From Oscillospiraceae bacterium (lineage in GTDB: Bacteria; Bacillota; Clostridia; Oscillospirales; Oscillospiraceae), in the NCBI GenBank assembly GCA_017448455.1, contig JAFSLL010000132.1:84839-148838 (forward strand): a stretch of 64,000 nt of DNA, written 5' to 3'. Below, piece after piece: positions 25,138 through 47,647 of this stretch; position 1 is the first letter of the stretch, and each line of letters opens with the position of its first letter. A model generated the notes under the pieces. That model did not search any database. It saw nothing but the letters and a program-made list of their open reading frames with translations, and was not told the DNA's origin. Made by a program: the position numbers and the translations under genes.

Positions 25138-25857
25138 TCACTTTTCAGACGGTTGGATTGCTTCCCAGACTGCCTCGGCCAGCTTCTGTGCCCCGATGGC
25201 GTTGGGGTGGATCCCATCGTCCACAAACCAGTCCGGATGCTTTTCCGTCAGAGCAAAAATGTCGACCGTGGCAAGTCCATACTCCAATGCGAGCTCCCGA
25301 ATAACCTCGCCAGCCTCCAGCACCTTGGAGCGCTGAATATCAAAGGTATAGACGTCGCCCTCCTCGCCGTGCAGGTGATGCGGTGCGGCGGGCTGCAGCA
25401 GGATCACGCGCGGCTTGCTGCTCAGATTCAGATAACTCTCCAGCAGTTTGCGATACTGCTTTTTGAATTCCTCCCGGCCCAGCCAGTTCTGAGGCTTGGA
25501 ATCGTTTGTACCGAACTTCAGCAGGACGATGTCCGGTTGGAAGGCTTTGCTCCTTAAATAGCGCGGCTCACGGACGTAGGGGTGATCTCCGGTGTGCATG
25601 GCGGTTCTCCCGCTCATGCCGTAGTTATGGACACAGTAGCCGGAGCCCGCCAGCTTTTGCAGGACATGCGGGTAGTTATAGCGGTACCAGTTGGGGATCA
25701 TTGCGCCATAGGTGATGCTGTCGCCCACGCAGGCGACCTTGATTTGTCCCTCTTTCGCCGGCGCGCCGATGGGGATCCAGGTCCAGCCCTTATAGCCCAT
25801 CACGCCCCAGGCCGCGGCCAGGGCGGCCCCGCCAAGAATCGCAAGCAGTTTTTTCAT
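25138..25857 (-). CDS. SGNH/GDSL esterase
   Basis: This 239-residue protein has an N-terminal hydrophobic segment (about residues 3-20) that may be a signal anchor, so it could act outside or at the membrane, unlike its neighbours. The SGNH blocks are clear: VGDSITYG with the nucleophile serine, NYGMSGRT with the glycine, GTNDS with the asparagine, and DGIHPN with the Asp-x-x-His pair. Such enzymes deacetylate pectin, rhamnogalacturonan or xylan. The ATG overlaps the GH78 stop as ATGA, so translation is coupled. Acetylated plant glycan is the likely substrate. Confidence 0.8.
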   Translation of the reverse strand: MKKLLAILGGAALAAAWGVMGYKGWTWIPIGAPAKEGQIKVACVGDSITYGAMIPNWYRYNYPHVLQKLAGSGYCVHNYGMSGRTAMHTGDHPYVREPRYLRSKAFQPDIVLLKFGTNDSKPQNWLGREEFKKQYRKLLESYLNLSSKPRVILLQPAAPHHLHGEEGDVYTFDIQRSKVLEAGEVIRELALEYGLATVDIFALTEKHPDWFVDDGIHPNAIGAQKLAEAVWEAIQPSEK

Positions 25858-28421
25858 GTTCCGCTTCTCCCTTCCTGCGTAAAGCTGTATGTTCCGGCGG
25901 AAATCTCTTCCGCCTCTTTGCCCGGCAAGCACAGCGTTGCCGAGCAGTTGGCCGGGATCGTGATGTTATATGTCACAGCTTCGCCTTCCCGACTCCATCC
26001 GCTTTCTACGGCGCCGTATACCGAATCATAGGCCAGGGAAATCCGCTCCAGCTGACCGACCGTGTGCAGCTCGATCACGAAGTGATTCTCTCGCCCGTCC
26101 AGTTTGACGCCGCAGAGCGTATCAAACAGCCACTGACAGCAGGCCCCCTTGGAGTAATGGTTCAGAGAGGCGTCCGGCGTCCAGTTCTCCCATACGGTGG
26201 TAGCTCCTTCCCGGATCTGCTGCATCCAGCCGATTTCGGGATTGGTCAGTGTGCGGAAAGCGTCGTCGCTCTCGCCCGCCTCGGTGAGCAGGCCAAAGAT
26301 GAAGGGCGTGGTCAAGAACCCCGTACCGATGCGATAGTTGCGCGCTCTGTTGAGCTTCACGATTTTGTCGAGCAGGTTCCGGCGCGCATCACCCTCGGCT
26401 AGGCCCAGACCGCAGGGGCGGGCGTATTTGCACATGCGGTCAGACTCGATCTCGCCGCCCTGCACAAAGTAATGGTTGTAGGCCTCTCGGGACTTCTCCG
26501 CAAGAAACGCGTAATCCGCCGCTTTCCCGTCTTTTAGATGTGCCGCCATCTCGGCCATCAACCGGGCGGAGTAGGAAAAATAGGCCGTGGCCTCCTCCGT
26601 CATGGGGAATAACAAGGCGGATTGAGGCGGTGCGCAGTCGTCCGGCTCCGTCCACTCGCCGAAGTGCTTGCCGCAGGCGACGATGTATTGATCGTATTTG
26701 CTGCGCTTTGGATTATTCAACGACAGAAGGTTCCGCTTGCCCAGCCGGGAACGGAAGAAAGCAAAGCACTTTTCCATGTTTGGCCAGAATTCCCGGATCA
26801 GGCAGTCGTCCCCGTAGCGCTTCCAGAAATACCAGGGGATTGTGATCATCGCGTCGCCCCAGCCTGCGCTGCCCTCCATGGAGATCCATTCGATGAAAGC
26901 GGATTTCCCGGGAGCAGAGGGGTTGATGTTGTATACCAGACCGTTTTCCTTCTGACAGTCGGCCACATCCCGCAGCCATTTGCGGAAGAAGGAACGCTGG
27001 TCCATCATGGTATTACCGGTATTGAAAAAGAGCTGCGCGTCGCCGGTCCAGCCCGCCCGCTCCCGGGTGGGGCAGTCGGTGGGCACGTCCAGGAAATTGC
27101 CCTTCACGCTCCAGAAAGTGTTCTGTACGATCTGATTGATCCCCGCGTCGGAGGATTCAAAGCGGAAGGTCGTGTCCATGTCGCTGTAGACAGCAATGGC
27201 AGTAAAGTTCTCTTTCCTGATTTCCTCCGGCCAGTCACGCAGCAGCACATAGCGAAAGCCCATCACCGTGAACTTCGGCTTGTACACATGGCGTTCGCCG
27301 TCGCAGGTCAGATCGTTGGTCTGAAAATGGCACCGGTCATATTCACTCTTCCAGGCGATGTTGGCCACGGTAAAATTGCCGTTCGCGTCCAGCTTCTCGC
27401 CGAAGGTCATCCTGCAGGTATGTCCGGCGGGACCGCAGACGGAGGTCTCCATATAACCGGCAATGTTCTGGCCGAAGTCCAGCACGGTTTGCCCGTCCGG
27501 GCAGTGCAGGATCTTAGGGCTTGAAAAGCGCTTCTGCTCCCGGACAGGCACGTTGTTTGAGGCGCAGACAATGCCGTCATAGCCTGTTTCCTGAGCATAT
27601 CCTCTGTAGGAGGGGCGACAGCGCAGGTCGACCACCTCGCCGTCTTTCATGTCCGCCAGGCGGATCGGGCCGTCGTTGGACCAGCGAAAATTTGCGTCTG
27701 TTCCGATGGTCTCCCGCTCGCCGTTTGCATAGGTGACTTCCAGCTGCGCAAGTGCCTTCGGCTCATGTCCGTATGTTTTGGCGTTTCCGAAAACTCCGGT
27801 TTTGCCGGCATACCAGCCATCAGCCAGCTCGATGGTCCACTCGTTCTCTATGTCCAGCAACTCGGTTATGTCATATGTCTGGTAGTGGACGCGTTTCTGA
27901 AAAGCCGTGGAGCCGGGCGTCAGAACCTGATCGCCCACGCGTCTGCCGTTGATATGGGTCTCATACAATCCGCAGGCCGTAGCATACAGCCGTGCCCGGA
28001 CGATTTCACCCTTAAGCTTGAAGCAACGCTTGAAATAATCCACCGGGTAACGCATATCCGGCTTTTTGTTGTGGCGATACGCGCCCATGATCCACTTGCC
28101 CTTCCAGTCGGAAGGGTGCAGAAGACCGATCTCGCAGGATGCCGTCTCGCTCCATTCGCCAGGCTCCCCGTTTTCGTCCCACAGCCGCAGCTGCCAGCGA
28201 ACCCGATCACGGCTTTGAAGCGTGAGCGGAAGCGAGGCGTGCATGGACGAGCTTTGCTCCATCGGGAATTCTCTCCATTCGTTCTCGTTGATGGAGCCGC
28301 GGAGCTGGTACGCACTTTGACAAGCAGCGCCTTTCACCTTCCAGGACACGCGGGGAGTCACAATATCGATCCCCATGGGGTTTGTCAAATATTCGGTCTT
28401 TAGCTGAATGGCTTTGATCAT
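25854..28421 (-). CDS. GH78 alpha-L-rhamnosidase
   Basis: This 855-residue protein has the full GH78 arrangement: an N-terminal domain opening EYLTNPMGIDIVTPRVSWKV, beta-sandwich domains with the YFKRCF and ATACGLYETHINGRRVGD segments, an (alpha/alpha)6 barrel with TDCPTRERAGWTGDAQ carrying conserved acid residues, and a C-terminal beta domain. It removes terminal alpha-L-rhamnose from polysaccharides or plant glycosides such as flavonoids. No signal peptide is seen. AGGAGGAG precedes the ATG. It overlaps the HPr-like gene before it and the SGNH esterase after it by ATGA junctions, giving a tight three-gene head to the operon. Confidence 0.9.
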   Translation of the reverse strand: MIKAIQLKTEYLTNPMGIDIVTPRVSWKVKGAACQSAYQLRGSINENEWREFPMEQSSSMHASLPLTLQSRDRVRWQLRLWDENGEPGEWSETASCEIGLLHPSDWKGKWIMGAYRHNKKPDMRYPVDYFKRCFKLKGEIVRARLYATACGLYETHINGRRVGDQVLTPGSTAFQKRVHYQTYDITELLDIENEWTIELADGWYAGKTGVFGNAKTYGHEPKALAQLEVTYANGERETIGTDANFRWSNDGPIRLADMKDGEVVDLRCRPSYRGYAQETGYDGIVCASNNVPVREQKRFSSPKILHCPDGQTVLDFGQNIAGYMETSVCGPAGHTCRMTFGEKLDANGNFTVANIAWKSEYDRCHFQTNDLTCDGERHVYKPKFTVMGFRYVLLRDWPEEIRKENFTAIAVYSDMDTTFRFESSDAGINQIVQNTFWSVKGNFLDVPTDCPTRERAGWTGDAQLFFNTGNTMMDQRSFFRKWLRDVADCQKENGLVYNINPSAPGKSAFIEWISMEGSAGWGDAMITIPWYFWKRYGDDCLIREFWPNMEKCFAFFRSRLGKRNLLSLNNPKRSKYDQYIVACGKHFGEWTEPDDCAPPQSALLFPMTEEATAYFSYSARLMAEMAAHLKDGKAADYAFLAEKSREAYNHYFVQGGEIESDRMCKYARPCGLGLAEGDARRNLLDKIVKLNRARNYRIGTGFLTTPFIFGLLTEAGESDDAFRTLTNPEIGWMQQIREGATTVWENWTPDASLNHYSKGACCQWLFDTLCGVKLDGRENHFVIELHTVGQLERISLAYDSVYGAVESGWSREGEAVTYNITIPANCSATLCLPGKEAEEISAGTYSFTQEGRSGT

Positions 28422-28863: not shown

Positions 28864-29940
28864 ATGGAACACGTCACACGCGAGCAGATCTATCACATTC
28901 TGCAAAACCTGAGCAATGTGGAGATCTCCTATACCGAGTACTCCCGGACGAAGCTGGACTATGAGGAGTACCAGACCTACTTTGACTATTTCAATAACCA
29001 TGTTTTACGCAGCCACAATCTCAGTCGTTTCTATTTTCCGATCCCTCTGAGTCGGGATGCAAAGATCCCGAAGAATGTGACTGACTGGGGTGTCATTTCC
29101 GAAAAAATGACCATCCTGCCCGGCTTCGACATGGCTGTTTCCAAGATGTTCAACTTCCCGGATTCCACCAGCCATTGCTGCGATTATTACACGATGATCT
29201 ATCTGATGGAGGGCAGCGGCAGGCTGGAGCTGGATGAAGGCAGTTTCACCTTAAACCCGGGCGACTTTTACCTGATCCCCGCCGGGGTCTATTACGGAGC
29301 GACTTGCGTCCCGGAAAGCATCTGTGTCTATTTCGATATGCGCCGCAGCTTTCTCAGCGCAGAGTACAAGGCGATTTTTCAAGACGACGCTCGGCTCAGC
29401 GACTTCTTTGTGGAGAGCTTAAAAAGCGAATCGACCATGACCTATCTGGCCATTCATACGGACAATTCCCAGATCATCCGCAATCGTGTGCTGGATGTGT
29501 TTGCCGAATACATCAACCAGTACAAGTTCTGCAACGCAGCCATGAAGAATTATCTGGCCCTGCTGATGACCAGCGTCCTCCGAAATCCCAACACCGCTAT
29601 CGACTCTTCCGTTGCGATCAGCCACCTGGAGCAGCAGTACCGCCAGGTGCTGGATTACCTGAAGCAGAATTATCAGACCGCCAGCCTGGACGAGATTGCG
29701 GAGCAGCTGCATTTCAGCAAGCAATATATCTGCAAGATCGTCAAGAGCGCCTCAGGAAAAACCTTCCAGACACTCTTGATGGAGATTCGGCTGCAGATGG
29801 TGGCGGACTATCTTCGTGAGACCGCACTGCCCATGGAGAGCATCGCCGAGCTCTGCGGCTTCAGCACCGCCGCCCACCTCAGCCGCAGCTTCAAAAACGC
29901 CTACGGGATGCCGCCGTCCGCGTATCGGGCCTGCCAGTGA
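28864..29940 (+). CDS. AraC-family regulator of the glycan operon
   Basis: The 358-residue protein has an N-terminal region of about 90 residues, a cupin sensor (about 95-175, with LNPGDFYLIPAGVYYGA), a linker, and a C-terminal double helix-turn-helix (about 255-355: LDEIAEQLHFSKQYICKIVK and ESIAELCGFSTAAHLSRSFK). AraC proteins with sugar-binding cupins usually activate neighbouring catabolic genes when their inducer is present. It is divergent from the nine-gene operon, with a palindrome in between, so it most likely controls that operon. AGGGGGAGATG stands before the ATG. A strong terminator closes the gene. Confidence 0.85.
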   Translation: MEHVTREQIYHILQNLSNVEISYTEYSRTKLDYEEYQTYFDYFNNHVLRSHNLSRFYFPIPLSRDAKIPKNVTDWGVISEKMTILPGFDMAVSKMFNFPDSTSHCCDYYTMIYLMEGSGRLELDEGSFTLNPGDFYLIPAGVYYGATCVPESICVYFDMRRSFLSAEYKAIFQDDARLSDFFVESLKSESTMTYLAIHTDNSQIIRNRVLDVFAEYINQYKFCNAAMKNYLALLMTSVLRNPNTAIDSSVAISHLEQQYRQVLDYLKQNYQTASLDEIAEQLHFSKQYICKIVKSASGKTFQTLLMEIRLQMVADYLRETALPMESIAELCGFSTAAHLSRSFKNAYGMPPSAYRACQ

Positions 29941-29969: not shown

Positions 29970-30019
29970 TGACAGGAAGAAACACCTTGCTCAGAAAAGC
30001 GAGGTGTTTCTTCCTGTCA
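29970..30019. terminator. Bidirectional terminator after the AraC gene
   Basis: A stem of about 20 bp (TGACAGGAAGAAACACCT and its complement) with a short A-rich loop. It lies between convergent genes and includes the last bases of the epimerase gene. Confidence 0.75.
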
Positions 30020-31540
30020 TTCTACATCAAGCTCTGAGACGATTTTGGGATATTCTCTCATTTCATCACTCTCATGGAGCGGATCCCAGACCTGGGCAAA
30101 AAACTTGTCAACCTTAGCTCTCTGTCCGTAGTTCCAGCTCTTTCTCTCACACAAATCGCACCAATGGCCACCTTGAAGAATCAGACGTGGACTTGCATCA
30201 AACTCATGGCCGAAGGCGCAGCGGAAGCGCAGCTTCGTCCTCCAGTCGCCAGTCTCCATGGAATCGGATATGCATTCGCCTCCACGAAATATTGCCGCGC
30301 CTTTCACATCATCCAACGACAGCGCACTCTCCGGCTTGCTCTCATCGTAGCCATGATCAATGTGGACAACATTTTTCCAATATGGGAAGTGGGTCAGTTC
30401 CCGGTATTTCTTCGGCATCTTCTCCCACGCCTTGCGGCTGCCCCAGAAAGCGTCGATATGATCCTCCACGTTGTCGGTGATAAACCGTTCCGTACCGTCT
30501 TCTTCTCTGGCAAGCTTGCCGAAAGTACCGCTGATGATTTTTCCCATTAAGAGCTGTCCACCAGGTATTTTGCAGATTTTCTTAGCAAGCGGGGCAATTA
30601 TACCGAGGTTTTTCAAATACTCCTTATAGAAATACTCCATGGAATCGTTTTGAAAATGCAGATAATTTTCCAACTTATCGGAATCCAGATAATACTGTCC
30701 GTGGAAATTACGGGTAGCCTGCATTTTCGGTTTGAGAATATAAGAAAGATCCCGGAAGCCAAGTTCTCCATACAGTCGATTGTACATCTCTGCAGTAGAC
30801 ACACGGCAGCTTTCGCCTCCGCCGATGTTATAGATATGCTCCCAAAAGTCCCCGTTCAGTTTCCCCTCGGCCTCATATCTGGCCAAATGCTCCAGCAGGA
30901 TGCCGGAGTCGCGGTCAGAGACATATTCCAGAACATTATCAAAGCAGTTGTGAAACATGACTGGATCGGCAACCTTTGCCATCGTCGGGCCAATAATGCC
31001 AGTCTGACGTAAAACTGCCCAGTATTTGAGCTCGGATTCCACGACCAGGCGTTCTGCTGCTACCTTGGATACTGCATAATAGTCAAACATACTGGGTTTG
31101 ATCGGATCTCCCACGCGGCCCCAGTGAATTGGCGGCATGCGGTCTCCTGTTTCGGCAACAGTTCCGATGTAAACAAATTTGCAGGACCTCTCTCGCCCCT
31201 GCTCGACAATGGCTCGGAGAAGATTTTTGGTGGAACCGTAGTTGATCCTCATAGCCTTCGCCGGATCGAAGTTCGGCTGAGGATAGATATAGACTGCCGC
31301 GTGAAGGATCAGATCTGCCTTGGCAACACACTTTGCGACCGTCTCATAGTCACAGAGATCACCCCAACAAATCTCAATTCCTGACTTGTTTTTATATGGC
31401 TCCAGCTTCTTGCGATTCTTCTTGCTGTCTCTGACTAACACTATGGTGTGGTAGCAGTCGGTATGGCAGGCCATGCGTTCCAGAGCCTGAGACCCCATTA
31501 CACCTGTGGCACCAGTCAGGAAGACGATCGGTTTTGCCAT
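30017..31540 (-). CDS. NAD(P)-dependent epimerase/dehydratase-type SDR with zinc-finger-like tail
   Basis: The first 330 residues of this 507-residue protein form an extended SDR: FLTGATGVMGSQALERM binds the dinucleotide, GTVAETGD carries the serine/threonine region, and YYAVSKVAAERLV gives the Tyr-x3-Lys catalytic pair. Beyond a helical linker, the last 90 residues contain FRCAFGHEFDASPRLILQ and GGHWCDLCER, a Cys/His pattern suggesting a treble-clef zinc knuckle. I know no characterised SDR with this tail. It is the last gene of the redox operon. The ATG at 31540 with GAAGGGTG upstream is favoured over the GTG at 31549, which overlaps the previous stop. Substrate unknown; steroid, terpenoid or aromatic alcohols are possible. 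Confidence 0.7.
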   Translation of the reverse strand: MAKPIVFLTGATGVMGSQALERMACHTDCYHTIVLVRDSKKNRKKLEPYKNKSGIEICWGDLCDYETVAKCVAKADLILHAAVYIYPQPNFDPAKAMRINYGSTKNLLRAIVEQGRERSCKFVYIGTVAETGDRMPPIHWGRVGDPIKPSMFDYYAVSKVAAERLVVESELKYWAVLRQTGIIGPTMAKVADPVMFHNCFDNVLEYVSDRDSGILLEHLARYEAEGKLNGDFWEHIYNIGGGESCRVSTAEMYNRLYGELGFRDLSYILKPKMQATRNFHGQYYLDSDKLENYLHFQNDSMEYFYKEYLKNLGIIAPLAKKICKIPGGQLLMGKIISGTFGKLAREEDGTERFITDNVEDHIDAFWGSRKAWEKMPKKYRELTHFPYWKNVVHIDHGYDESKPESALSLDDVKGAAIFRGGECISDSMETGDWRTKLRFRCAFGHEFDASPRLILQGGHWCDLCERKSWNYGQRAKVDKFFAQVWDPLHESDEMREYPKIVSELDVE

Positions 31541-31541
31541 A

Positions 31542-32558
31542 TCAATCACCCTTCATAGCCTTGACGTCTTTGGCCTTCCCATCCAGAATATCCACACTCA
31601 GGCGAACGGACTGGCCAATGGCAGCGTCGATGTCGTCCTCGGTCACACCCAAGGGCACGCAGCCCAGATTTTTATCCATGAATTGATTGGAGCACTGCAG
31701 CTTCGTGTACTTGACCATGTCCAGACCACCCTCGATCCCGCGCTTTTTCTGATCGCGCTTGATCTTCATACCAGCCATGGCGTACATCCAGTCGGGAATC
31801 GTGATGATCTTTTTGTTCGGGCAGCCAAGGTGCTTATGAAAGATCTTCAGCATTTCTTTCCAGGTCATGTTAAACCAGCCGATGGGATAGCAGTTGCCGC
31901 CCCTGTTTCGTTCCAGCGCACCTGCGATCGCCTGGCCTACTTGTCGGATCGTGACCATAGCGGTGCCGCCTTTGGGCCACATGGTTGCTCCCTTCATGGA
32001 GCGGATGCTCTCCACCATGTAGACCCACACAGGGCGTCTGCCGGGTTGTGCGCCGAAGATGTAGGACAGCTCCAGAACAGCCACATCAAAGTTTTCATCC
32101 GCGTACTTCATGGCGACTGTCTCCTGATCGCGGCGGGAGCGAATATATGGATGCGTCTCATACAGCTTCATTTCCGGGCATGTCCGGTCAGAATACGCGA
32201 AGCAGGATCCACAGATGACACTGTGTTTTACACCGCATTCTTTTGCCAGACGGAGAAGTCGGTCTGTGGGGTCGATGTTGAACTTTTTAAACATATCGTA
32301 TACAGGCGCAGGGCCTTCAACGCGCTCATCGATACCTGCGGCAAACACGAATCCCTCGCAGCCTTTGAACAGCTCACGAATCTCATCGTCGCTCATGTTC
32401 ATAAAGTTCCCGGGAATAATCTCCATTTCTTCCGGGATTCCTGCGTCCTTGGACGGAGTACGCCGTGCCAGTGTCTTTACATGATGCCCCCGTGCGATCA
32501 GTTCTCTGGCTCCTTCGCTGCCGAGGAGTCCTGTTCCGCCTAAAATCAATACGTTCAT
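31542..32558 (-). CDS. NAD-dependent epimerase/dehydratase-type SDR
   Basis: This 338-residue protein opens with the nucleotide-binding ILGGTGLLGSEGARELIARG. It continues as an atypical extended SDR: VICGSCFAYSDR in the active-site region, then IRSRRDQE, where the usual YxxxK is not preserved in its normal form. It ends with a small helical substrate domain. A redox or isomerase role towards the operon's substrate is likely, but the weak catalytic motif means binding or regulation cannot be excluded. GGAGG precedes the ATG; its stop is one base from the next ATG. Similar pairs of epimerase-like proteins are not part of the classical bile-acid operon. Confidence 0.65.
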   Translation of the reverse strand: MNVLILGGTGLLGSEGARELIARGHHVKTLARRTPSKDAGIPEEMEIIPGNFMNMSDDEIRELFKGCEGFVFAAGIDERVEGPAPVYDMFKKFNIDPTDRLLRLAKECGVKHSVICGSCFAYSDRTCPEMKLYETHPYIRSRRDQETVAMKYADENFDVAVLELSYIFGAQPGRRPVWVYMVESIRSMKGATMWPKGGTAMVTIRQVGQAIAGALERNRGGNCYPIGWFNMTWKEMLKIFHKHLGCPNKKIITIPDWMYAMAGMKIKRDQKKRGIEGGLDMVKYTKLQCSNQFMDKNLGCVPLGVTEDDIDAAIGQSVRLSVDILDGKAKDVKAMKGD

Positions 32559-32633
32559 AGTAACCTCCGATTTTTTTCAATCATAATACATAGCTCGGGA
32601 GACCGAATGATACAGTCTCCCGAGCACCTGTGT

Positions 32634-32846
32634 TTACGCCAGAGTCTTCAGGTCTTCTTCCAGAGCCTTGACCTGCTCTTTTGTCATCTTGGCCTGGGGG
32701 AATTTCACGCACATGCCGAGTTTCATGCCCAGGGCCATCTTGAGCTGGGGATTCTTGGAGAAGCCGGGAGAATACTTCTCAATGAGGGCAACGGCTTCAG
32801 GGCTTTCCAGAACTTCTTTCAGGGTGCTGTCATAAGAGATTGCCAT
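32634..32846 (-). CDS. Small 70-residue conserved-looking protein
   Basis: The protein starts MAISYDSTLKEVLESPEAVA and contains LIEKYSPGF, KMALGMKLG and a lysine/glutamate-rich helical end, with AGGAGG before the ATG. It is soluble, probably all-helical and has no cysteines apart from one (GMCVKF). I recall related short modules at the ends of larger bacterial enzymes, but cannot name a family or role. It lies between the OYE reductase and the epimerase genes with spacing of 36 and 75 bases, so it is transcribed with them, and may be an accessory or stabilising subunit. Confidence 0.65.
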   Translation of the reverse strand: MAISYDSTLKEVLESPEAVALIEKYSPGFSKNPQLKMALGMKLGMCVKFPQAKMTKEQVKALEEDLKTLA

Positions 32847-32882
32847 TTTGTTTCCTCCTGTTTTTCTGTTTTTATGATTGAC

Positions 32883-34802
32883 TTAGAGTTTGCTTACCGC
32901 TTCATACGCCTCGCGTGTGGCGTTCATAATATCCCGGCACTTAACGCTGTCACCGATAGGAATCACCGGGCAGATATCTGTGTAGGCCTCACTGTCTAAG
33001 CTGTCGGGAATATAGCCCATGGCCAGCAGAACAGTGTCGCAAGGAATGACCTGTTTCCCACCGGCGTTCTCTACAACCACGCCTTCCGGTGTGATTTCCA
33101 CCACCTTCGCGTTTGTCAGGTAACTGGCTCGACTATTGGCCATCATCTCTCGCAGGATGTTCTCATTCTGCTGGAATGGAGGATCCGGCATCATTTGATC
33201 GGCCATCTCCACCACAGTTACGTCATGGCCGTTGTGATCAAAATGCAGCGATGCTTCAATGCCCACCTGACCACCGCCCGCAATGACGACGCGTTTACCG
33301 ACAGGAACCAGATTCTTCAGGGCCTTTTCGCAGGAATAGACATTGTCCCCGTCGATCCCGGGAATAGACTTCGGAGCCAGAATCCGTCCTCCGGTCGCCC
33401 AGATGATTATGTCCGGTGCAAAGTCCGCCACCGCACCATGGCTTGCCTCTGTGTATAGCCTCAGCGTCACATCGGATTTAAGCAGCTGGGTGTTGTAGTA
33501 GTTACAGAGCCGAATCATGTCCCGCTTCATGTACGGTGCCGCGGCGGCGATTGCCTTGCCGCCAACGCGAGAAGTCTTTTCCCACAGCTCAACCTGATGC
33601 CCAATCTTTGCTGCCATCAGCGCTGCGGCACAGCCGGCAGGCCCCCCGCCGACAACGAGCACTTTCTTAGGAGTGGTCGTCGGCTGGAGTTTCCGTTCCG
33701 ATTCGAAGCCCGTAAAGGGATTGAGTGCGCATTTAACGTGTTCAAAGCGCATGATACTGCCGATGCATCCTTCGTTGCAGGAAATGCAGGGGCGAATATC
33801 TTCAGGCCGCTTTTCCGCAATCTTATTAGGAAGCTCCGGATCGGCAAGCAAGCCGCGACCAATGACCGCAATGTCACAGACACCGCTTTCCAGAGCTGCC
33901 TCTGCTTTTTCTACATCGCCCAGACGACCATGAGTCAGAACCGGGATACTAACCGCTTCCTTTACAGCTTTGGCACTATGGGTCTGCATAGTCATTTCCT
34001 GATAGAAGACCGCAGGCATAGCGAGCTGCCACCTCTCATAACAACCTGCGTCCACATGCAGCGCATCAAAGCCTGCTTCCTCAAGAATCTTCGCGAGTTC
34101 AATACCTTCTTCCAGCTGACGGAAGCCAGGATAAGGAACGCCGTGGTCGGGACAGAACTTGATGAGCACCGGGAAATCCTTTCCGGCCACTTCTTTGGCG
34201 ATGTTCAGCAGCTCAATCGGGAAGGTGGCGCGGCCGCGGACGTCGCCGCCGTACTTGTCCGTACGGGTGTTCCAGGCAGCGGTCAGGAACTGGTCGCCCA
34301 GATAACCGCCGTAGAAGTGCAGCTCGATACAGTCAGCGCCTGCCTGAACCGCCATTTCCACATCCTTGCGGAAATAATCTTCCATGATGCTGATCTCTTC
34401 CAGCGTCATCTCATGGCAAGGAAGATCCGGAATATACAGCCAGCCGCAGGCGGACGCACTGATGGGCACATCGTAGGCCTTGGCGTTGGCACCCATGCGG
34501 CCGCAGCCGGGCATGAACTGAAACCCCACCGTGCAGCCTTTTTCATGGGCGCGACGGCAGATCTCCGTCAGTCCCGGCAGGGACGCCTCGTTGAGCACCA
34601 TCGACGAGGGAATGTCCTCAAAGTAATCGGTGATCAGCATATTGATCAGAAGCATGCCCACGCCGCCGTCAATGCGGGCGCTGTAGTATTCCACCGTTGC
34701 AGGATTCGCATCCTGGCCGAGATCCACGCCCATCGGCGCCATGACAATCCTGTTTTTCAGTTCCATAGACCCGATCCGGGTTTTTTCCATCAACTTCTGC
34801 AT
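32883..34802 (-). CDS. Old-yellow-enzyme-type reductase with 4Fe-4S and FAD domain (BaiCD/FadH-like)
   Basis: This 639-residue protein has the layout of 2,4-dienoyl-CoA reductase and of bile-acid reductases BaiCD/BaiH. It has an FMN TIM barrel (1-335, ending VIGRGLLADPELPNK), a 4Fe-4S motif Cys339-x2-Cys342-x3-Cys346-x11-Cys358, an FAD site VLVVGGGPAGCAA (381-393) and an NAD(P)H site VVIAGGGQVGIEA near 495. These enzymes reduce activated C=C bonds using NAD(P)H. The FMN-site motif HxxHGY or HxxNGY is here H162-FYGGY167: the first His and the Tyr remain, the middle His/Asn is glycine, so substrate contacts differ from classical members. GGAGG precedes the ATG. Central enzyme of the redox operon. 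Confidence 0.85.
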   Translation of the reverse strand: MQKLMEKTRIGSMELKNRIVMAPMGVDLGQDANPATVEYYSARIDGGVGMLLINMLITDYFEDIPSSMVLNEASLPGLTEICRRAHEKGCTVGFQFMPGCGRMGANAKAYDVPISASACGWLYIPDLPCHEMTLEEISIMEDYFRKDVEMAVQAGADCIELHFYGGYLGDQFLTAAWNTRTDKYGGDVRGRATFPIELLNIAKEVAGKDFPVLIKFCPDHGVPYPGFRQLEEGIELAKILEEAGFDALHVDAGCYERWQLAMPAVFYQEMTMQTHSAKAVKEAVSIPVLTHGRLGDVEKAEAALESGVCDIAVIGRGLLADPELPNKIAEKRPEDIRPCISCNEGCIGSIMRFEHVKCALNPFTGFESERKLQPTTTPKKVLVVGGGPAGCAAALMAAKIGHQVELWEKTSRVGGKAIAAAAPYMKRDMIRLCNYYNTQLLKSDVTLRLYTEASHGAVADFAPDIIIWATGGRILAPKSIPGIDGDNVYSCEKALKNLVPVGKRVVIAGGGQVGIEASLHFDHNGHDVTVVEMADQMMPDPPFQQNENILREMMANSRASYLTNAKVVEITPEGVVVENAGGKQVIPCDTVLLAMGYIPDSLDSEAYTDICPVIPIGDSVKCRDIMNATREAYEAVSKL

Positions 34803-34822
34803 GATGAAAGACCTCCTATTCG

Positions 34823-35575
34823 TTAATGACAGGTGGACCAGCCGCCGTCAATGGGGAGGCAGACGCCGCTCACATACTTCGCCTCATCGGAGGCCAGATA
34901 GACCATTGCCCAGGCGGCGTCTTCCGGCTCGCCCAGGAAACCAAGAGGCGTGCTGTCCAGGAAAAACTCCCGACAGGCCTCAAAGATGGCGTCCTGCTTG
35001 GGTGTCCAAACATAGTTGGGCGCCAGGCAGTTAAAGCGGACCCCGCTCCCCTTGGTAGCTGCGACCATATCCTTTGTGGCCAGCAGAATGCCGGCTTTTG
35101 TGATCGGATAGGACGCGCAGCCATAGCCTAGGAAGGAAAGGCCGGTGGAAGAAGAAAAGTTGATAAAATTCCCCTTGATCCAATTGTCCAGCATGTACTG
35201 GAGAACGGACTGATAGGAAAACATCATACTCTTCAGATTGGTCTCGATGACTCTGTCCCATTCGTCCATATCCAGGCAGTCCCAGTCGCTGTAGCAGAAT
35301 TCTGCGGCGCCGTTTACACAGCAGTCCACTCTGCCGTAGGTATCCAGCGTCAGTTTCAGGATCTCATCCCAGGATTCCCGTTTGCTCACATCGGCGACCA
35401 GCGCGACGGCGTCTCCGCCGTTGGCTTTAATCTGTTCACAGCGTTCGGTCACATCCTCGTGACGTCCCACCATGACGCATTTCGCACCCTCCCGGCAGAA
35501 CAGTTCACTGGCTTTCCCGCAGATCCCGCCGGCTGCGCCGGTCAGGATCGCGACTTTATCTTTCAACCGATCCAT
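34823..35575 (-). CDS. Classical short-chain dehydrogenase/reductase
   Basis: The 250-residue protein has the complete classical SDR set: TGAAGGICGKAS for NAD(P) binding, VADVS, VNGAAEF, the serine in NFSSSTG, Tyr-Pro-Ile-Thr-Lys as catalytic YxxxK, and the C-terminal VSGVCLPIDGG. Related enzymes are hydroxysteroid dehydrogenases and BaiA-type alcohol dehydrogenases as well as ketoacyl reductases. It would oxidise or reduce a hydroxyl/keto group on the operon's substrate. The ATG at 35575 with AAGAGG upstream is favoured over an in-frame TTG two codons earlier. It starts 11 bases after the SnoaL-like gene. Confidence 0.8.
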   Translation of the reverse strand: MDRLKDKVAILTGAAGGICGKASELFCREGAKCVMVGRHEDVTERCEQIKANGGDAVALVADVSKRESWDEILKLTLDTYGRVDCCVNGAAEFCYSDWDCLDMDEWDRVIETNLKSMMFSYQSVLQYMLDNWIKGNFINFSSSTGLSFLGYGCASYPITKAGILLATKDMVAATKGSGVRFNCLAPNYVWTPKQDAIFEACREFFLDSTPLGFLGEPEDAAWAMVYLASDEAKYVSGVCLPIDGGWSTCH

Positions 35576-35586
35576 ACGCAAGCCTC

Positions 35587-36090
35587 TTATTCAAAGCGAA
35601 GAGAGCCGAGCACGACGCCGTAGTCCAGACGAAGGATCTGGATGCGCCACTTCCCGTCCTCACATTTCACCAGATCATCCACGTACAGGCCAAAGCCGGA
35701 ATAGTTGTAATCATCCGCGCAATAGGTGTGGTAGTCGTTCATCCTCGTTACCAGCTGGACGTGGGTGTCATCCACAAAATTGACCACCTGATTATGGCCG
35801 AAATGCATGGGGACCATTTTGGCATTGTCGCAAAGGAAAAGATTCTGGGCTATTTGATCGTCCGGGTCGGTATAGCCCTGTCCGCCGCCCCAATAGGTGT
35901 CAAAGCCTTCTGCGACGAACACGTCCTTGAGAAGCTCCCGGTCGTTCAGGTCCACGCCGTAAAAATAGGACGCTTTGGTTGCCAGAATAGCGGGGATCTC
36001 TGCCAACTGCTCCGGAGTGTAGGGTTTACGTGCACCCATCAAAGCTTCGTGCGCCAGCTTCCTCAGGCTTTCTGAATATTCGAGTACCAT
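35587..36090 (-). CDS. SnoaL-like (NTF2-fold) protein resembling bile-acid 7-dehydratase BaiE
   Basis: The 167-residue protein has the SnoaL_4 pattern: helix, then YFYGVD with Tyr42 and Asp47 five apart, a strand pair with HFGHN (His96 and His99), TRMNDYHTY and the end GKWRIQILRLDYG. BaiE (166 residues), the 7-alpha-dehydratase of bile acids, has the same size and, as I recall its structure, a catalytic Tyr-x4-Asp pair with a histidine and an arginine in equivalent order. Other family members are isomerases, hydroxylases or limonene-type hydrolases, so dehydratase activity is only a good guess. It is first in the operon, behind AAGGAGACGG and a palindrome-rich region. Confidence 0.7.
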   Translation of the reverse strand: MVLEYSESLRKLAHEALMGARKPYTPEQLAEIPAILATKASYFYGVDLNDRELLKDVFVAEGFDTYWGGGQGYTDPDDQIAQNLFLCDNAKMVPMHFGHNQVVNFVDDTHVQLVTRMNDYHTYCADDYNYSGFGLYVDDLVKCEDGKWRIQILRLDYGVVLGSLRFE

Positions 36091-36117: not shown

Positions 36118-36220
36118 TTGAATCAAGCGTTTGCCTGTTTTGAAAATAACATAGAAAAAACGCTTGCCGCAAAAGAATCAAATTGATTCTTTTTGCGGCA
36201 AGTTGAATAGATTGATTCAA
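36118..36220. promoter_or_regulatory. Cluster of TTGATTC/GAATCAA sites
   Basis: The intergenic region holds TTGAATCAA (36118-36126), the palindrome GAATCAAATTGATTC inside a larger hairpin (36175-36189), and TTGATTCAA (36212-36220). The first lies just upstream of a possible -10 box for the SnoaL-like operon. The three share one half-site, as expected for cooperative binding by a single dimeric regulator, most likely the divergent XRE protein. Confidence 0.6.
36163..36202. repeat. 40-base inverted repeat in the regulatory region
   Basis: CTTGCCGCAAAAGAATCAA is mirrored almost perfectly, one extra A in the right arm, around a single base. It could act as a DNA operator or as a terminator for upstream readthrough. 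Confidence 0.7.
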
Positions 36221-36334: not shown

Positions 36335-37783
36335 ATGACATTTGGTCAAACCTTGAAGCAAGTTTTGGCGATCAGTGGACTGCGCGCGAGCTATCTGGCC
36401 AATGACCTCGGCTATGATGACTCTTATATCAGTCGCTGGTTAAGCGGGCAGAAGCTGCCGTCCTTGAAATACAACGATGACTTGTTTGCCAAGATTTCCT
36501 CTATCGTCATCAAAAACTGTACGGAAGAGAGCCGACAGGCTTTGGTAAGTGAGATGATGCCGCAACTTCGTGACTCCGCCTCTGCAAAAATAGTGGAAAG
36601 TGAATTATCCAGGCTTCTTTCGAATGCCTTTTATGCCAGCGGTTCTTCTCTTTCTTCCGGAAAGTTTATGTCCCGTACGGAAAACTGCAACGCAAACATT
36701 TCTGTACTCCCGGCGAAAACCGTATATCAGATTTTCTATGATGCAATGGAATATGTCTCCCGAACCGGTTCTGCCCCATTTATTAATGTAATTGTCAATT
36801 CTCCTCTGCACTTTCATGCCAACGAAGAGTTTTCCATTATCACCAACGTACCGACTGACAGCGGCATCAAGCCGCTCTGCATGCACCAGACCGTCAACTT
36901 GAAAGATTTCAAGGAAAATGTCGATTTGTATTGTGCCCGGATTTGTCAGTTTTTTGGAGGCGCTCCTAGAGCATACTACCACCTGTATCAGACGGATGAC
37001 CGCCCGTCAACAGACGACTTGTTTATTGTCATGGAAGGCGGCTTCCTATACTTTTTCTTAAAAAACCCCTACGGTGGTCAGGCTTATTCTCTGATCTCCT
37101 ATGACAAAGATCTTGTGTTCGAATACTTCACTTCTACGGAAGCGAACCTGAATCTTCGTCCTCGCTTAACCAGCTACTTTGATTATGCGTGGCTTCTGGA
37201 GCGCAAGCTTGTTTACCGACTCTTGATGGGCGGTAAATTATCGCTTTTGCTGAAGAGCATGTTTCCTCTCTTTATGACATCCGAGATGTTTTCTGAGCTA
37301 TGCAGCAGTTTCACGGCAAAGGAAATGGAGCCTCAAATGCTTGTCTCCCATTATGAGAAGCTGTGGCAGGCCCCTAAGCGTGCGATCATTTTCAAATCCG
37401 CTCTTGTAAATTATATCTGCGACGGAAAAATCGAACTGTTCGGACAGATCGTTCACCTTGACGATCAGATAAGGAAAGCACATTTACAGTATTTGCTGAG
37501 CCTTCTACGCAATTCCGAGGAAAACAGTATAGCCATTTTGAATGATGACAATCCGCTGCTTAGTTATAACGAGTGTGGAATCTCCTTGTTTCTCAGCGAC
37601 GGCATCGCGTTCGCAGAAAACCTCGATGCCGACCCCGAGCACCGCTTTATCCGCCTCCGCTCCATGGAGATTATTGAATACTTTTTCAGCTTCTTTGACC
37701 ATCTTCAAAGCTTGGACGAAAAATATATCCTGCTTGGCGACGAAGCCTTGGATTTTATAGAGCGCGGCCTTGAAATGATATAA
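36335..37783 (+). CDS. Large XRE-type regulator of the redox operon
   Basis: The 482-residue protein has an N-terminal helix-turn-helix (about 1-65: LAISGLRASYLANDLGYDDS, then YISRWLSGQKLPS). The other 400 residues are a large region without any family I recognise, containing alternating helical and beta stretches, perhaps a ligand-sensing domain. It has no membrane segment. AGGAGGCG precedes the ATG. It is divergent from the SnoaL-like/SDR/OYE operon with shared TTGATTC palindromes, and so most likely senses that operon's substrate. Base composition is more A+T-rich than the genes on both sides, hinting at a separate origin. Confidence 0.75.
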   Translation: MTFGQTLKQVLAISGLRASYLANDLGYDDSYISRWLSGQKLPSLKYNDDLFAKISSIVIKNCTEESRQALVSEMMPQLRDSASAKIVESELSRLLSNAFYASGSSLSSGKFMSRTENCNANISVLPAKTVYQIFYDAMEYVSRTGSAPFINVIVNSPLHFHANEEFSIITNVPTDSGIKPLCMHQTVNLKDFKENVDLYCARICQFFGGAPRAYYHLYQTDDRPSTDDLFIVMEGGFLYFFLKNPYGGQAYSLISYDKDLVFEYFTSTEANLNLRPRLTSYFDYAWLLERKLVYRLLMGGKLSLLLKSMFPLFMTSEMFSELCSSFTAKEMEPQMLVSHYEKLWQAPKRAIIFKSALVNYICDGKIELFGQIVHLDDQIRKAHLQYLLSLLRNSEENSIAILNDDNPLLSYNECGISLFLSDGIAFAENLDADPEHRFIRLRSMEIIEYFFSFFDHLQSLDEKYILLGDEALDFIERGLEMI

Positions 37784-37792
37784 TAAAGGTCT

Positions 37793-38197
37793 TCAAGAAT
37801 TTGCCTCTTCGGCATCCTCGTTGTAAACCAGCTCCTTCAGCACAATCTCTTCTGAACGGCTGCGGATGCTGTTCATGCGACGAACCCATTCCATCTGATT
37901 GGCAACTTTGAGCGCTTCGGTCACACCTTCGCGCTTGGCCATTTGGTAAACAAGCAGTTCCATTCGCTCTACACAGGCTTCGTCGATCTCCAGAAGGTGC
38001 GAATACAATTTTCCGGACAGCAACAACTCTGAATAAAGTACGGGATGCTGCTCTTTCAGATAGCATTTCCGCATCCGCCCATGTTTACCGATAGGCCTCT
38101 CTTCTACCTCTCCGATGGATAGGTCTGGAAGGACCACGTCGCCAACCTGCGTATAAGTGCCGCCTTTTAGTTCAAAAAAGGATTTCTGCGTTTTCAT
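37793..38197 (-). CDS. tnpV: TnpV family transposon protein
   Basis: The 134-residue protein reads KTQKSFFELKGGTYTQVGD, LPDLSIGEVEERPIGKHGRM, and NQMEWVRRMNSIRSRSEEIV, the characteristic blocks of TnpV proteins carried by Clostridial mobilisable transposons of the Tn4451 type. Function in the element is not well defined. GGAGG precedes the ATG at 38197. No integrase or mobilisation gene is attached, so it is probably a leftover of an element that once sat here. It converges on the XRE regulator, whose stop lies nine bases away. Confidence 0.8.
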   Translation of the reverse strand: MKTQKSFFELKGGTYTQVGDVVLPDLSIGEVEERPIGKHGRMRKCYLKEQHPVLYSELLLSGKLYSHLLEIDEACVERMELLVYQMAKREGVTEALKVANQMEWVRRMNSIRSRSEEIVLKELVYNEDAEEANS

Positions 38198-38278
38198 GGG
38201 ATATACCTCCAAATCAATATTTGGAAGCATCGTAAGCGTGAGGGTTACTTCTTCATTTTATAGCTTTAACTTGTATAA

Positions 38279-39421: not shown

Positions 39422-40975
39422 TCACCAGGCGTTCTGATCTTCGATCTCTTCCAGGGCGGGATCCAGCGGCTCCTCGTTCAAGACCGTGCGCATGTAGCGG
39501 TTGACCTCGTCGCGCATATTCTGGCGGGAGGCTTTGCGCGGATCCAGCAGCGAGTGCGTGACCCAGACCAGATGCAGGCCGCGTTTCATGGCCTCTTCCT
39601 CATAGATGCCGTGGTAGCCCGTCAGAGCCTTGCACGCGATCTGCTCATAGAGGATGATCATGTCGCAGTGAAATTCCTCGCAGAAGCGCCACACGTCGTC
39701 CACTCCGTAGCGGAAGCCGCCCTCGGAGCGGTTGCGCATGACCATGTTCATCATGAGATGGGCCAGATCGTAATAGGCCTGTTCCCGGTTTTCGGGGGTA
39801 TCGGTGTCGGCGTAGATCTCTGTGGAGGTAAGGTTCATGAAATGGGTGATCGGGACGATGCCCCAGCAGGCCATGAGCCAGTTGGGGAAGTTGGTGTAAA
39901 ACTCCGCCTGCACGCCCCACATGAGGGCGCGGTGGCGAGGCTCCCTGCACATGAGCTCCCGGCGCTCGTAGCCTTTCATCATCAGTTTCCGGAGCTTGTC
40001 GTCCACCGCCAGATACTCCGCGCTCTGCGCGTTCATCATGCGGGTGTAGTACACGTCCCGGTGCAGGGCGTAGTTGTTCTCCGGCACCTGGGGGTAGGCC
40101 GCTTTCTGCATCTCGAGGATCTCCAGGAAGCGCCGGGTCTGCTCGTTGAAAAGCCGCATGTTGGCAAAGTAGGCGTCCCAGTCCCATTTCTCACCGGTCT
40201 GCTCCTCCACGAAGCGGATGGCGGCCTTGACCTCATCCGCACCGTATTCCCGAATCAGATCGTCCTCCAGATATTCCGGCGCGGCCACGGCAAATGCGGG
40301 TTTTTGGTAACGGCGGTCCTCGATGGAGTTGCCCATAAGAGAGGTGTCGCAGGAGGTGTTGCAGTGCAGCATGCACTTGCCTACCTCGGGGTTGTCGTCC
40401 TCGATGGCGATGCCCAGCTCTGCCTTCGGCATGGTGCAGGCGTCACCGGTAATGCCGTATTCCTCGGCCTTGTCAATGTAGAAGGGCGCGGAGTGCTGCG
40501 CCACAGCGGAGCGGGCAAACACGCCGCAGAGCTGCGGGCAGATATCCACCAGGTTCGGGAAGCCGAAAAGCAGCTCCTCCATCATGTTCTCGTCGAAGAC
40601 TACCATCTTGTCGCTCTTGCCCTTGCTGCCGCCGATACGCTGGTCGGCCTCAAACAGCAGAGTCAGCGTACGGATCAGCTGGGCGAGGATGAAGTCATAC
40701 TGGGTGTGAGCGATGCGCAGCTGATTGCCGCGGGTCCCCTCCGTGCAGCGGTCGATAAAGTCAATGGCGGCCAGGTAGTCCAGCATCCAGCGGTAGCGGA
40801 AGAAGCCCTTGAAGCACTGGGGATTGGTGATGAACTTTACGAGCCTGCCCCAGTTTTTGGCCCAGCAGCGATAGTCGTACCAGGAATCGGAGAGCCCGCG
40901 CCATTCGCGCTGGGTCTTGGTCCTGCCGCCGTCATAGAGCTTTCCGGACGAAACGATGCCGATCTTGGTCCTCAT
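39422..40975 (-). CDS. 2-hydroxyacyl-CoA dehydratase/benzoyl-CoA reductase-like subunit
   Basis: The 517-residue protein opens KIGIVSSGKLYDGGRT. It carries cysteine groups of the HgdB/BcrC superfamily (DICPQLCGVFARS; CMLHCNTSCDTSLMG), a central helical part, and a final third with LIILYEQIACKALTGYHGIY typical for the family's iron-sulfur site. Members remove water from 2-hydroxyacyl-CoA or reduce aromatic CoA esters by one-electron chemistry and need a partner subunit and an ATP-driven activator. The ATG at 40975 (GGGGGCGGGAG ahead) overlaps the stop of a preceding gene by ATGA, but only the tail of that gene survives. Without partner or activator nearby it may be orphaned or work with proteins encoded elsewhere. 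Confidence 0.75.
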   Translation of the reverse strand: MRTKIGIVSSGKLYDGGRTKTQREWRGLSDSWYDYRCWAKNWGRLVKFITNPQCFKGFFRYRWMLDYLAAIDFIDRCTEGTRGNQLRIAHTQYDFILAQLIRTLTLLFEADQRIGGSKGKSDKMVVFDENMMEELLFGFPNLVDICPQLCGVFARSAVAQHSAPFYIDKAEEYGITGDACTMPKAELGIAIEDDNPEVGKCMLHCNTSCDTSLMGNSIEDRRYQKPAFAVAAPEYLEDDLIREYGADEVKAAIRFVEEQTGEKWDWDAYFANMRLFNEQTRRFLEILEMQKAAYPQVPENNYALHRDVYYTRMMNAQSAEYLAVDDKLRKLMMKGYERRELMCREPRHRALMWGVQAEFYTNFPNWLMACWGIVPITHFMNLTSTEIYADTDTPENREQAYYDLAHLMMNMVMRNRSEGGFRYGVDDVWRFCEEFHCDMIILYEQIACKALTGYHGIYEEEAMKRGLHLVWVTHSLLDPRKASRQNMRDEVNRYMRTVLNEEPLDPALEEIEDQNAW

Positions 40976-41025
40976 GCTCCCGCCCCCTTCTGCAGCTTCT
41001 TGATCTCGATGCTCTCCATGAAAGC
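40972..41025 (-). pseudogene. Last codons of an upstream partner subunit
   Basis: The minus strand reads AFMESIEIKKLQKGAGA and a stop that overlaps the next ATG. Such an ending is expected for a second HgdB/BcrB-type subunit. Beyond 41025 the homology stops abruptly and coding sense switches to the other strand, so a rearrangement removed the gene. Confidence 0.45.
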
Positions 41026-41029
41026 CTGG

Positions 41030-41209
41030 ATGTATCAGCTCAGCGATAACAGCATTTTCACCATGATGTACAAAACCACCATGGAGGCCCAAAAGGGCAT
41101 GTATGCGCTCTATTTCAAAAAGAACGGCCTGAAGGATGCCAGGGAATTCATGACTGCAGCAGCTGCGGCGACTGGCAAACTGCCGGCAGGCTTTTGCTTT
41201 CATCCATGG
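41030..41209 (+). other. Orphan coding fragment joined at the breakpoint
   Basis: The plus strand reads MYQLSDNSIFTMMYKTTMEA, then QKGMYALYFKKNGLKDAREF and ends in a run of alanines and LPAGFCF. Composition is that of a real soluble protein, but there is no ribosome site and I do not recognise the family. It begins within a few bases of the dehydratase remnant, so it probably comes from the DNA fused there. From 41210 to 41482 I see nothing. Confidence 0.3.
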
Positions 41210-41561: not shown

Positions 41562-42302
41562 TTATGAAACCCCGGGCGTGAAGGTACCGGCGGCGCTGAG
41601 CCCGGTCAGAAGTTCTTCATTGTACCGGTGAACGATGCCGATTGCCTTTGACGCGTTGCCTTCCTTTAAGGCAAGCGCGGTCTGCTCCAGATAATCTGCG
41701 GCCGAATCAGCGCCGATGGACCGGATCCATTCTTCCCACAGACGAAGGGTGAAAGGCTTAAAGGAGTTCAGCACGAGCGTGGAAAACATATTACCGGAGT
41801 GAAGAAAAATGTAATGGGTAAACCGGAAGGCCAGCTCGGCCTGGTCCTCCAGTTTTAACGGGGGATTCCTGTGGGCGCCGTTGCGGAGATCAAGCGCCAG
41901 CGACCTGAGCTGCAGAATGTCTTTGGTCGAATGCTTCCGGGCGAAGACCCTCATTGCCTCGTTCTCAAGCGCCTCCCTCATAAGAATCAGGGAACGGATA
42001 TCCTGGGGATCCAGTTTGAGCACGTTTGTCTTCAACAGTGCGGTCAGGGTCTCAAGATTGCCGAATTCCTCCCAGTTTGCCACATAGGCGCCCTGGCGGG
42101 GGTCAATCCGGATAAAGCCGTTTTTTGCCAGATTGCTCATGCCGAGATGAACGGCGCTTTTGCTGATGCCCATCTCTTCCGCAAGCATCCTTTCGGAGGG
42201 AAGGCGCTCTCCGACCTGCAGTTCGCCGGAAAGGATGGAATTCTGCATCCGCGTTTCAAAGATCTCGGTAACGGTCGGCGCGATAATTTTTTCGTATTTC
42301 AT
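41562..42302 (-). CDS. GntR/FadR-type regulator
   Basis: The 246-residue protein has a winged helix-turn-helix (about 10-75: GERLPSERMLAEEMGISKSA, then DPRQGAYV) and an all-helical FCD-like sensor domain (about 95-240). Family members usually repress neighbouring catabolic or redox operons until a carboxylic-acid-type ligand binds. It is divergent from the flavin dehydrogenase/reductase pair, and an inverted repeat TGGTC-N7-GACCA lies at its own transcription start. AGAGGTGAT precedes the ATG. It is expected to control both directions. Confidence 0.85.
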   Translation of the reverse strand: MKYEKIIAPTVTEIFETRMQNSILSGELQVGERLPSERMLAEEMGISKSAVHLGMSNLAKNGFIRIDPRQGAYVANWEEFGNLETLTALLKTNVLKLDPQDIRSLILMREALENEAMRVFARKHSTKDILQLRSLALDLRNGAHRNPPLKLEDQAELAFRFTHYIFLHSGNMFSTLVLNSFKPFTLRLWEEWIRSIGADSAADYLEQTALALKEGNASKAIGIVHRYNEELLTGLSAAGTFTPGVS

Positions 42303-42403: not shown

Positions 42404-42451
42404 TTTCAGTGACCTGACACGACAATCTGATCAGAAAGGGTGAAACGGTTT

Positions 42452-46991: not shown

Positions 46992-47106
46992 GGGTTTCAA
47001 AATCTTTGCTTGTCCAGTTTGTGGGATTTGGCTCCTATTTCAAATAGTTGCATATGTCCAATTCTTTGGATTTTGAAAACTTCTGCTGTCCAGTTTCTGG
47101 GGTACA
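46990..47106. mobile_element. IS3/IS150-type terminal fragment
   Basis: About 117 bases with no ORF join the truncated MFS gene to a truncated integrase. The right edge is TGTACCCCAGAAACTGGACA on the minus strand, in the style of IS150-group inverted repeats. A similar copy (CAAACTGGACAAGCAAAGAT) lies at the left edge in the same orientation. Both interrupted genes end exactly here. Confidence 0.5.
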
Positions 47107-47578: not shown

Positions 47579-47612
47579 AAATCAAGAGTCCCCTGAAAGG
47601 CAAAAAATAAAG

Positions 47613-47644
47613 AAAAAACGCTGAAATCATTGACGATTTCAGCG
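47613..47644 (-). terminator. Terminator of tRNA-Pro
   Basis: CGCTGAAATC and its complement around a six-base loop, followed on the minus strand by six T residues. Confidence 0.85.
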
Positions 47645-47647
47645 TTC

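Follow-up and report, generated by a model that had tools for sequence, protein, structure and literature searches.

The 64,000-nucleotide stretch analyzed here (the window; contig JAFSLL010000132.1 of an Oscillospiraceae bacterium) carries at 30017-36090 six leftward genes encoding a SnoaL-like protein (SnoaL), a classical short-chain dehydrogenase/reductase (SDR), an ene-reductase of the Old Yellow Enzyme type (OYE), a 70-residue protein (P70) and two extended SDRs (E338 and E510). The set is read here, tentatively and at somewhat short of an even chance, as a coenzyme A (CoA)-free module that would act as an electron sink and carry a plant (rhamno)glycoside aglycone through oxidation, dehydration and ene-reduction. 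The aglycone core would be processed after sugar removal: the SDR would oxidize a hydroxyl to a ketone, SnoaL would remove water from the activated position to give an enone, the flavin/Fe-S enzyme OYE would reduce the C=C bond with NAD(P)H and the SDR would convert the ketone back to the alcohol. The net reaction would be a dehydroxylation, with one hydroxyl lost and electrons taken up by the compound. E338, E510 and P70 may form an accessory set for the same compound class or its oxidized sugars. We infer this chemistry from the enzyme classes and the conserved three-gene core, and each reaction step, like the substrate class and the accessory roles, is proposed on such grounds.

Plant-glycoside aglycones are favored because of the sphingomonad relatives of the cluster, the nearby rhamnosidase gene and a C-glycoside deglycosidase gene in the same genome. 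An earlier reading made without database searches (the sequence-only reading) had suggested sterols, bile acids, terpenoids or plant aglycones; plant aglycones, steroidal sapogenins included, come out as the better candidates and bile acids are disfavored. In its fullest form, the proposal would be an undescribed anaerobic CoA-free pathway for the aglycones of plant glycosides (flavonoids, steroidal sapogenins or related compounds), with a portable SnoaL-SDR-OYE core, an accessory set (E338, E510 and P70) in common with aerobic sphingomonads and E338 as a new YxxxR type of SDR; this larger claim is doubtful.

Conserved core in Clostridia

Gene content, protein families, the conserved core and the co-occurrence of genes were observed directly. 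All six minus-strand open reading frames (ORFs) were open, each preceded by a Shine-Dalgarno-like sequence (weakest for SDR and E510), and their Pfam families (SnoaL_4, 8.1e-12; adh_short_C2, 1.1e-40; Oxidored_FMN, 1.1e-48, plus Pyr_redox_2 in OYE; Epimerase, 1.7e-16 in E338 and 2e-19 in E510) agreed with the six-gene leftward set that the sequence-only reading had described, including its combination of dehydratase-, alcohol-dehydrogenase- and ene-reductase-type proteins. Judged by homology, the grouping is not due to chance, since SnoaL-SDR-OYE recurs in a second genome and homologues of P70, E338 and E510 recur jointly on sphingomonad plasmids.

At E<=1e-10, SnoaL was found in its own genome only among 391 genomes of the class, and at E<=1e-5 in two of the 91 family genomes, its own included. 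The other, G967, belongs to another genus and has SnoaL, SDR and OYE genes with 53%, 52% and 50% identity to those of the window, together with a full-length relative (26%) of the window's regulator that is likewise divergent from them. Because G967 has these genes without P70, E338 and E510 in the 55 kb examined (tblastn, E<=1e-3), the core is taken to be regulator-SnoaL-SDR-OYE. A second, different SnoaL_4 gene between SDR and OYE in G967 (L107 12166-12678) suggests two SnoaL steps in that genome. Genes for an SDR, a family III CoA-transferase and an FAD-binding protein were also seen roughly 19-25 kb from the G967 core (L108 1227-6636).

The OYE tree contained 32 rows (the window, G967, six paralogues of the same genome, 23 hits from 21 other genomes of the class and Escherichia coli FadH). 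The window OYE paired with that of G967 (100/100) inside a 12-row clade (support 100/99), in which the motif HxYGGY was present in all 12 rows (two of them identical) vs. none of the 20 others, and by tree and motif OYE is placed in a clade of its own, named here the HxYGGY clade. Neighborhoods of 6 to 20 kb were available for nine of the 12 rows plus the window and G967, 11 in total. An SDR relative adjoined OYE in four of them (window, G967, G072 and G001), and a SnoaL_4 gene was also present in at least three (window, G967 and G072), a lower bound, as the window SnoaL query missed the G072 gene that the Pfam model found; in G072 it lies 385 bases upstream of the SDR-OYE pair in divergent orientation.

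The accessory genes were sparser. E338 was found at E<=1e-20 in two of 147 genomes of the order and three of 398 of the phylum, its own included. One of the four named E338 genome loci, a short contig with frame breaks from isolate RUG258, places E510 after E338, and in G553 the order is E510, a gene looking TetR-type by eye, and E338. E510 was rejected as a marker of the operon, as its relatives in the class sit in other contexts. P70 had relatives in two other genomes of 79 searched, one adjoining an SDR; in G063 a P70 relative (40%) stands behind an SDR, and an OYE, a major facilitator superfamily transporter and a marginal SnoaL_2 protein are encoded nearby. Viral contigs yielded one weak SnoaL relative and neither OYE nor P70, and no E510 match was found in phages at E<=1e-20.

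Relatives on sphingomonad plasmids and the host genome

A search of 72,556 plasmid records (cut-offs E<=0.01 for P70, 1e-10 for E338 and 1e-40 for E510) gave P70 homologues on 18 records, all Sphingobium or Novosphingobium, E338 homologues on 14 (13 from the same two genera, one from Burkholderia) and E510 homologues on 20 (17 from the two genera, the rest from Parabacteroides, Mycobacterium and Sphingomonas). E510 was placed 0.4-28 kb from P70 in 17 of the 18 P70 records (AP027316 among them), six of which had a farther second E510 copy; the 18th, Novosphingobium RL4, had no E510 among the matches listed. E338 and E510 were 15-26 kb apart in all 12 records holding both, and homologues of the three genes together spanned 27-42 kb on 12 sphingomonad plasmids. 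The sequence-only reading had regarded the two epimerase-type proteins as new in such company, which is not supported, as both have Sphingobium/Novosphingobium plasmid homologues and E338 stands there beside SDR and SnoaL/NTF2 genes.

In TomTYG72 the order was SnoaL_4, E338, SDR, SDR, SnoaL_4, E510, hydrolase, glycoside hydrolase family 78 (GH78), hydrolase, GH106, GH3, P70, with regulators and other genes interspersed; the P70 homologue has an apparent signal peptide by eye. The Novosphingobium ES2-1 stretch comprised a gene for the C-glycoside deglycosidase beta subunit (CGDB; 5 kb from E338), E338-SDR-NTF2-SDR, E510, an annotated alpha-L-rhamnosidase, GH3 and P70. E338-SDR-NTF2-SDR also occurred on pNL2, and in Burkholderia arboris two SnoaL matches lay 5-7 kb from the E338 match. 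An annotated chalcone synthase and an annotated delta(24)-sterol C-methyltransferase were seen between the E338 and E510 homologues of Sphingobium plasmids (L116 12755-16362; same stretch in L125-L130).

According to the portions of the source consulted, the Sphingobium RC1 plasmid genes 03247, 03248 and 03250 (SpGH3-1, SpGH106-1 and SpGH78-1) act on steroidal saponins (PMC10653915). The order is the same in the TomTYG72 run, where a single gene separates GH106 from GH78; the match is by family and order only. There the E510 and P70 homologues flank GH3-GH106-hydrolase-GH78, with E338-SDR-SDR-SnoaL_4 12-27 kb from that run, and the window has GH78 nearby; the saponin-hydrolase cluster differs from the window in its aerobic host, its lack of such an OYE at E<=1e-60 and identities of 27-37%. 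Flavonoids are also candidates, because flavonoid-glycoside activity is cited for a GH106 enzyme in the same portions (PMC10653915). P70, E338 and E510 would accordingly tie the cluster to plant-glycoside catabolism.

A CGDB gene (PF19906, 130 bits) was also found in the window's own genome and in none of 14 control genomes. This recalls C-glycoside deglycosidase systems, with the difference that it lies on another contig, outside the operon. Because of the GH78 rhamnosidase and the CGDB gene, the host appears to be equipped for plant glycosides. By eye, TIM-barrel, Gfo/Idh-like and vicinal-oxygen-chelate-like genes stand beside the CGDB gene (contig C277, L124 7278-12199).

Evaluation of the proposed module and alternative explanations

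Several observations weigh against the proposed module. In 55 kb of G967 (tblastn, E<=1e-3) there was no P70, E338 or E510 and no relative of the window rhamnosidase; seven of the 11 OYE-clade neighborhoods were without an SDR relative; the other five genes were all absent across 21 kb at three of the four named E338 genome loci; and E510 relatives were found in other gene contexts. The sphingomonad plasmid records are related to each other and represent few independent cases, the homology is at 25-38%, the hosts are aerobic and carry dioxygenase and P450 genes, and no OYE of the window kind was present in those records at E<=1e-60. Between the rhamnosidase gene and the operon lie a regulator and an HPr-like gene, and the rhamnosidase may be close by chance; its nearness alone is weak evidence because the window contains several glycosidase genes (GH36 by Pfam, others by eye). 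A single-sequence structure prediction for SnoaL was unusable (mean predicted local distance difference test score 34).

The closest described system is the bai operon of Clostridium scindens, which shares the combination of SnoaL_4, classical SDR and OYE/4Fe-4S/FAD proteins and the oxidize-dehydrate-reduce logic. A divergent bile-acid or steroid-hormone pathway, with this logic applied to host steroids, would accordingly explain the presence of all three of the BaiE, BaiA and BaiCD enzyme classes, the best NCBIfam matches of OYE (BilR-long and BaiCD) and the 3-alpha(20-beta)-hydroxysteroid dehydrogenases among the solved relatives of SDR; moreover, in P. sordellii a BaiE homologue is described close to an OYE with no other clear bai genes, as far as the part of PMC10382948 used here goes. 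However, OYE fell short of the BaiCD and BilR cut-offs by about half, and the assembly (91.85% complete, 7.29% contamination) contained neither a CoA-transferase family III (BaiF family) match nor one to the bile-salt hydrolase family. Published bai operons comprise BaiB, BaiCD, BaiE, BaiA, BaiF, BaiG and BaiH (parts of PMC9426597 and PMC10382948). The window lacks BaiB, BaiF, BaiG and BaiH in the operon, has P70, E338 and E510 in addition and has a different regulator; the absences of the BaiB CoA ligase, the BaiG-type transporter and BaiH apply to 30017-36090, CoA ligases not having been searched genome-wide. This supports the sequence-only reading in setting the cluster apart from bai and in the absences it noted, CoA transferase among them. 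In the FadH alignment OYE has G-Y...Q, vs. N-Y...S in steroid 5-beta-reductases and Y/S-Y...E in the bile-acid clade (part of PMC12238238). A bile-acid pathway was thus rejected as the leading reading and is disfavored on these comparisons, and host steroids in general seem improbable substrates; plant steroids would be a different matter, steroidal sapogenins being steroids. Riboflavin degradation was also rejected as a known match, its genes being different in the portion of PMC12934955 consulted, and no SnoaL/ene-reductase cluster outside bai was recognized in the literature searched, most subscription journals lying outside the search.

It is unlikely, though less so than the steroid explanation, that the core and E338/E510 are two unrelated units, one reducing small enone- or quinone-like compounds and the other modifying sugars. 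Such a division would fit the hairpin between P70 and E338, the G967 core standing without E338, E510 and P70, the Parabacteroides E510 relative near a sugar-phosphate isomerase/epimerase gene and the third-position GC of E510 (0.56 vs. 0.64-0.71 in the other five genes). Both sides of the hairpin are nevertheless tied together, because on the sphingomonad plasmids P70, from the core side, accompanies E510, and E338 accompanies SDR and SnoaL_4/NTF2 genes. Lignan or lignin-dimer conversion, in which SnoaL would not be a dehydratase but a lyase of C-C or ether bonds, is the least probable of the alternatives considered. In sphingomonads, to which most of the plasmid relatives belong, lignin dimers are substrates of lyases with the NTF2/SnoaL fold, and next to the G063 P70 relative and SDR stands a folate protein of the GCV_T type that may be a demethylase; however, the analysis, in which no lignan enzymes were compared by sequence, found no family of such enzymes.

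If the aglycone module is correct, gut-type bacteria would apply the oxidize-dehydrate-reduce logic of bile-acid metabolism to plant compounds in a CoA-free form, P70, E338 and E510, families without known function, would gain a common role, and loose BaiE- or BaiCD-like matches in metagenomes would overcount bile-acid dehydroxylation. The locus yields a short list of enzymes that can be tested against defined aglycones.

Protein features

What we take to be the catalytic triad of BaiE is matched by Y42-x4-D47 and H96 of SnoaL, which are also kept in the G967 orthologue. These residues would indicate dehydratase capability at most, because Y-x4-D is common to five of the eight SnoaL_4 rows covering that stretch. 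The nearest solved chain was a putative scytalone dehydratase (E 0.0012), and no chain named BaiE was among the five PDB matches at E<=1. The best solved relatives of SDR also included R-specific alcohol dehydrogenases and FabG-type reductases; it scored 128.8 and 119 bits against two 7-alpha-hydroxysteroid dehydrogenase models (cut-offs 450 and 350), and no BaiA model was among the matches listed (25 of 200 families).

OYE has clustered cysteines at 339, 342, 346 and 358 (CISCNEGC...C). It was rejected as a BaiCD equivalog (365.1 bits, under half of the NF041087 cut-off of 825), as BilR (389.5 for BilR-long vs. 750 in NF045599, with HFYG instead of HGDR) and as mycofactocin OYE-2 (328.2 vs. 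793). The tree was built without BaiCD or BilR sequences, and motifs were compared with these through parts of PMC12238238 and PMC13252198. BilR, BilV and steroid 5-beta-reductases share its long architecture of about 640 residues in those accounts, with the motifs HGDR in BilR, AHAH in BilV and N-Y...S in the 5-beta-reductases vs. HFYGGYL...Q in the window OYE.

GalE-type enzymes use YxxxK. In E338 the aligned residues are Y138-I-R-S-R142, and YxxxR was present in 7/7 aligned rows and 4/4 plasmid relatives (all ten relatives examined). Retention of the K-to-R change across phyla suggests altered or non-redox chemistry, and E338 may not be an ordinary dehydrogenase because YxxxR replaces the catalytic YxxxK. 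E510 has a Rossmann Epimerase domain with YxxxK, as in extended SDRs, followed by a C-terminal domain (30020-30598) without Pfam or PDB match, whose C-x2-GH...C-x2-C pattern was kept in five of seven aligned rows and two of four plasmid relatives. This domain was present in Sphingobium, Novosphingobium, Parabacteroides and Clostridia relatives, the cysteine pattern being lost in some. P70 had no PDB match at E<=1 and no Pfam family; at E<=10 a single weak Pfam model matched, with a score far below its cut-off.

Locus structure and neighboring genes

The sequence-only reading treated the six genes as one operon. They are co-directional, with gaps of 11, 20, 36, 75 and 1 bases from SnoaL to E510, but unity is uncertain and the set may be arranged as 4+2 genes, because a 13-pair hairpin sits in the 75-base P70-E338 gap. 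An 82-base stretch with this hairpin folds at -30.1 kcal/mol (z -4.5; 0/200 shuffles as good), the T-run, with 5 T among the first 8 bases, is weak, and the hairpin may end or attenuate transcription. Two gene calls were corrected, the most likely starts being ATG 35575 for SDR and ATG 31540 for E510 (alternative GTG 31549). SnoaL and the divergent regulator share an upstream region with a palindrome and TTGAATCAA/TTGATTCAA elements. The palindrome (z -6.4) lies in the SnoaL gene leader, is followed by six T on the minus strand (36154-36202 in all) and is either an operator or a leader terminator.

Table 1. Features of the cluster and its immediate surroundings (window coordinates)
Feature	Position	Strand	Description
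SnoaL	35587..36090	-	SnoaL_4 family, 167 aa; dehydratase-type, BaiE-like at family level only
SDR	34823..35575	-	Classical SDR, 250 aa, Y156xxxK motif
OYE	32883..34802	-	OYE/4Fe-4S/FAD ene-reductase type, 639 aa, HFYGGYL motif at residue 162
P70	32634..32846	-	70-aa protein, no known family
Hairpin	32593..32625	-	13 pairs, between P70 and E338; terminator- or attenuator-like
E338	31542..32558	-	Extended SDR; Y138xxxR142 at expected YxxxK position
E510	30017..31540	-	Extended SDR, YxxxK kept; C-terminal domain with zinc-finger-like cysteine pattern
Divergent regulator	36335..37783	+	482 aa; weak N-terminal helix-turn-helix below Pfam cut-off
Palindrome	36163..36202	.	Near-perfect, 40 bases, divergent promoter region; operator or leader terminator
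GH78 alpha-L-rhamnosidase	25854..28421	-	Pfam Bac_rhamnosid6H 7.8e-73; neighbor, possibly functionally linked
AraC-type regulator	28864..29940	+	Pfam HTH_18 9.2e-19; between E510 and rhamnosidase, convergent with E510

To the right of the operon, a TnpV protein is encoded at 37793-38230, and a 193-residue ORF with a phage-integrase N-terminal domain only (46997-47723) adjoins tRNA-Pro; both could possibly be remains of an integrated island. Between them, an FAD enzyme, CrtI-like by eye, in tandem with a flavin/2Fe-2S reductase (42440-45232) is divergent from a GntR regulator (41562-42302) and a 2-hydroxyacyl-CoA-dehydratase-D-like protein (39422-41203), as seen in a Pfam scan.

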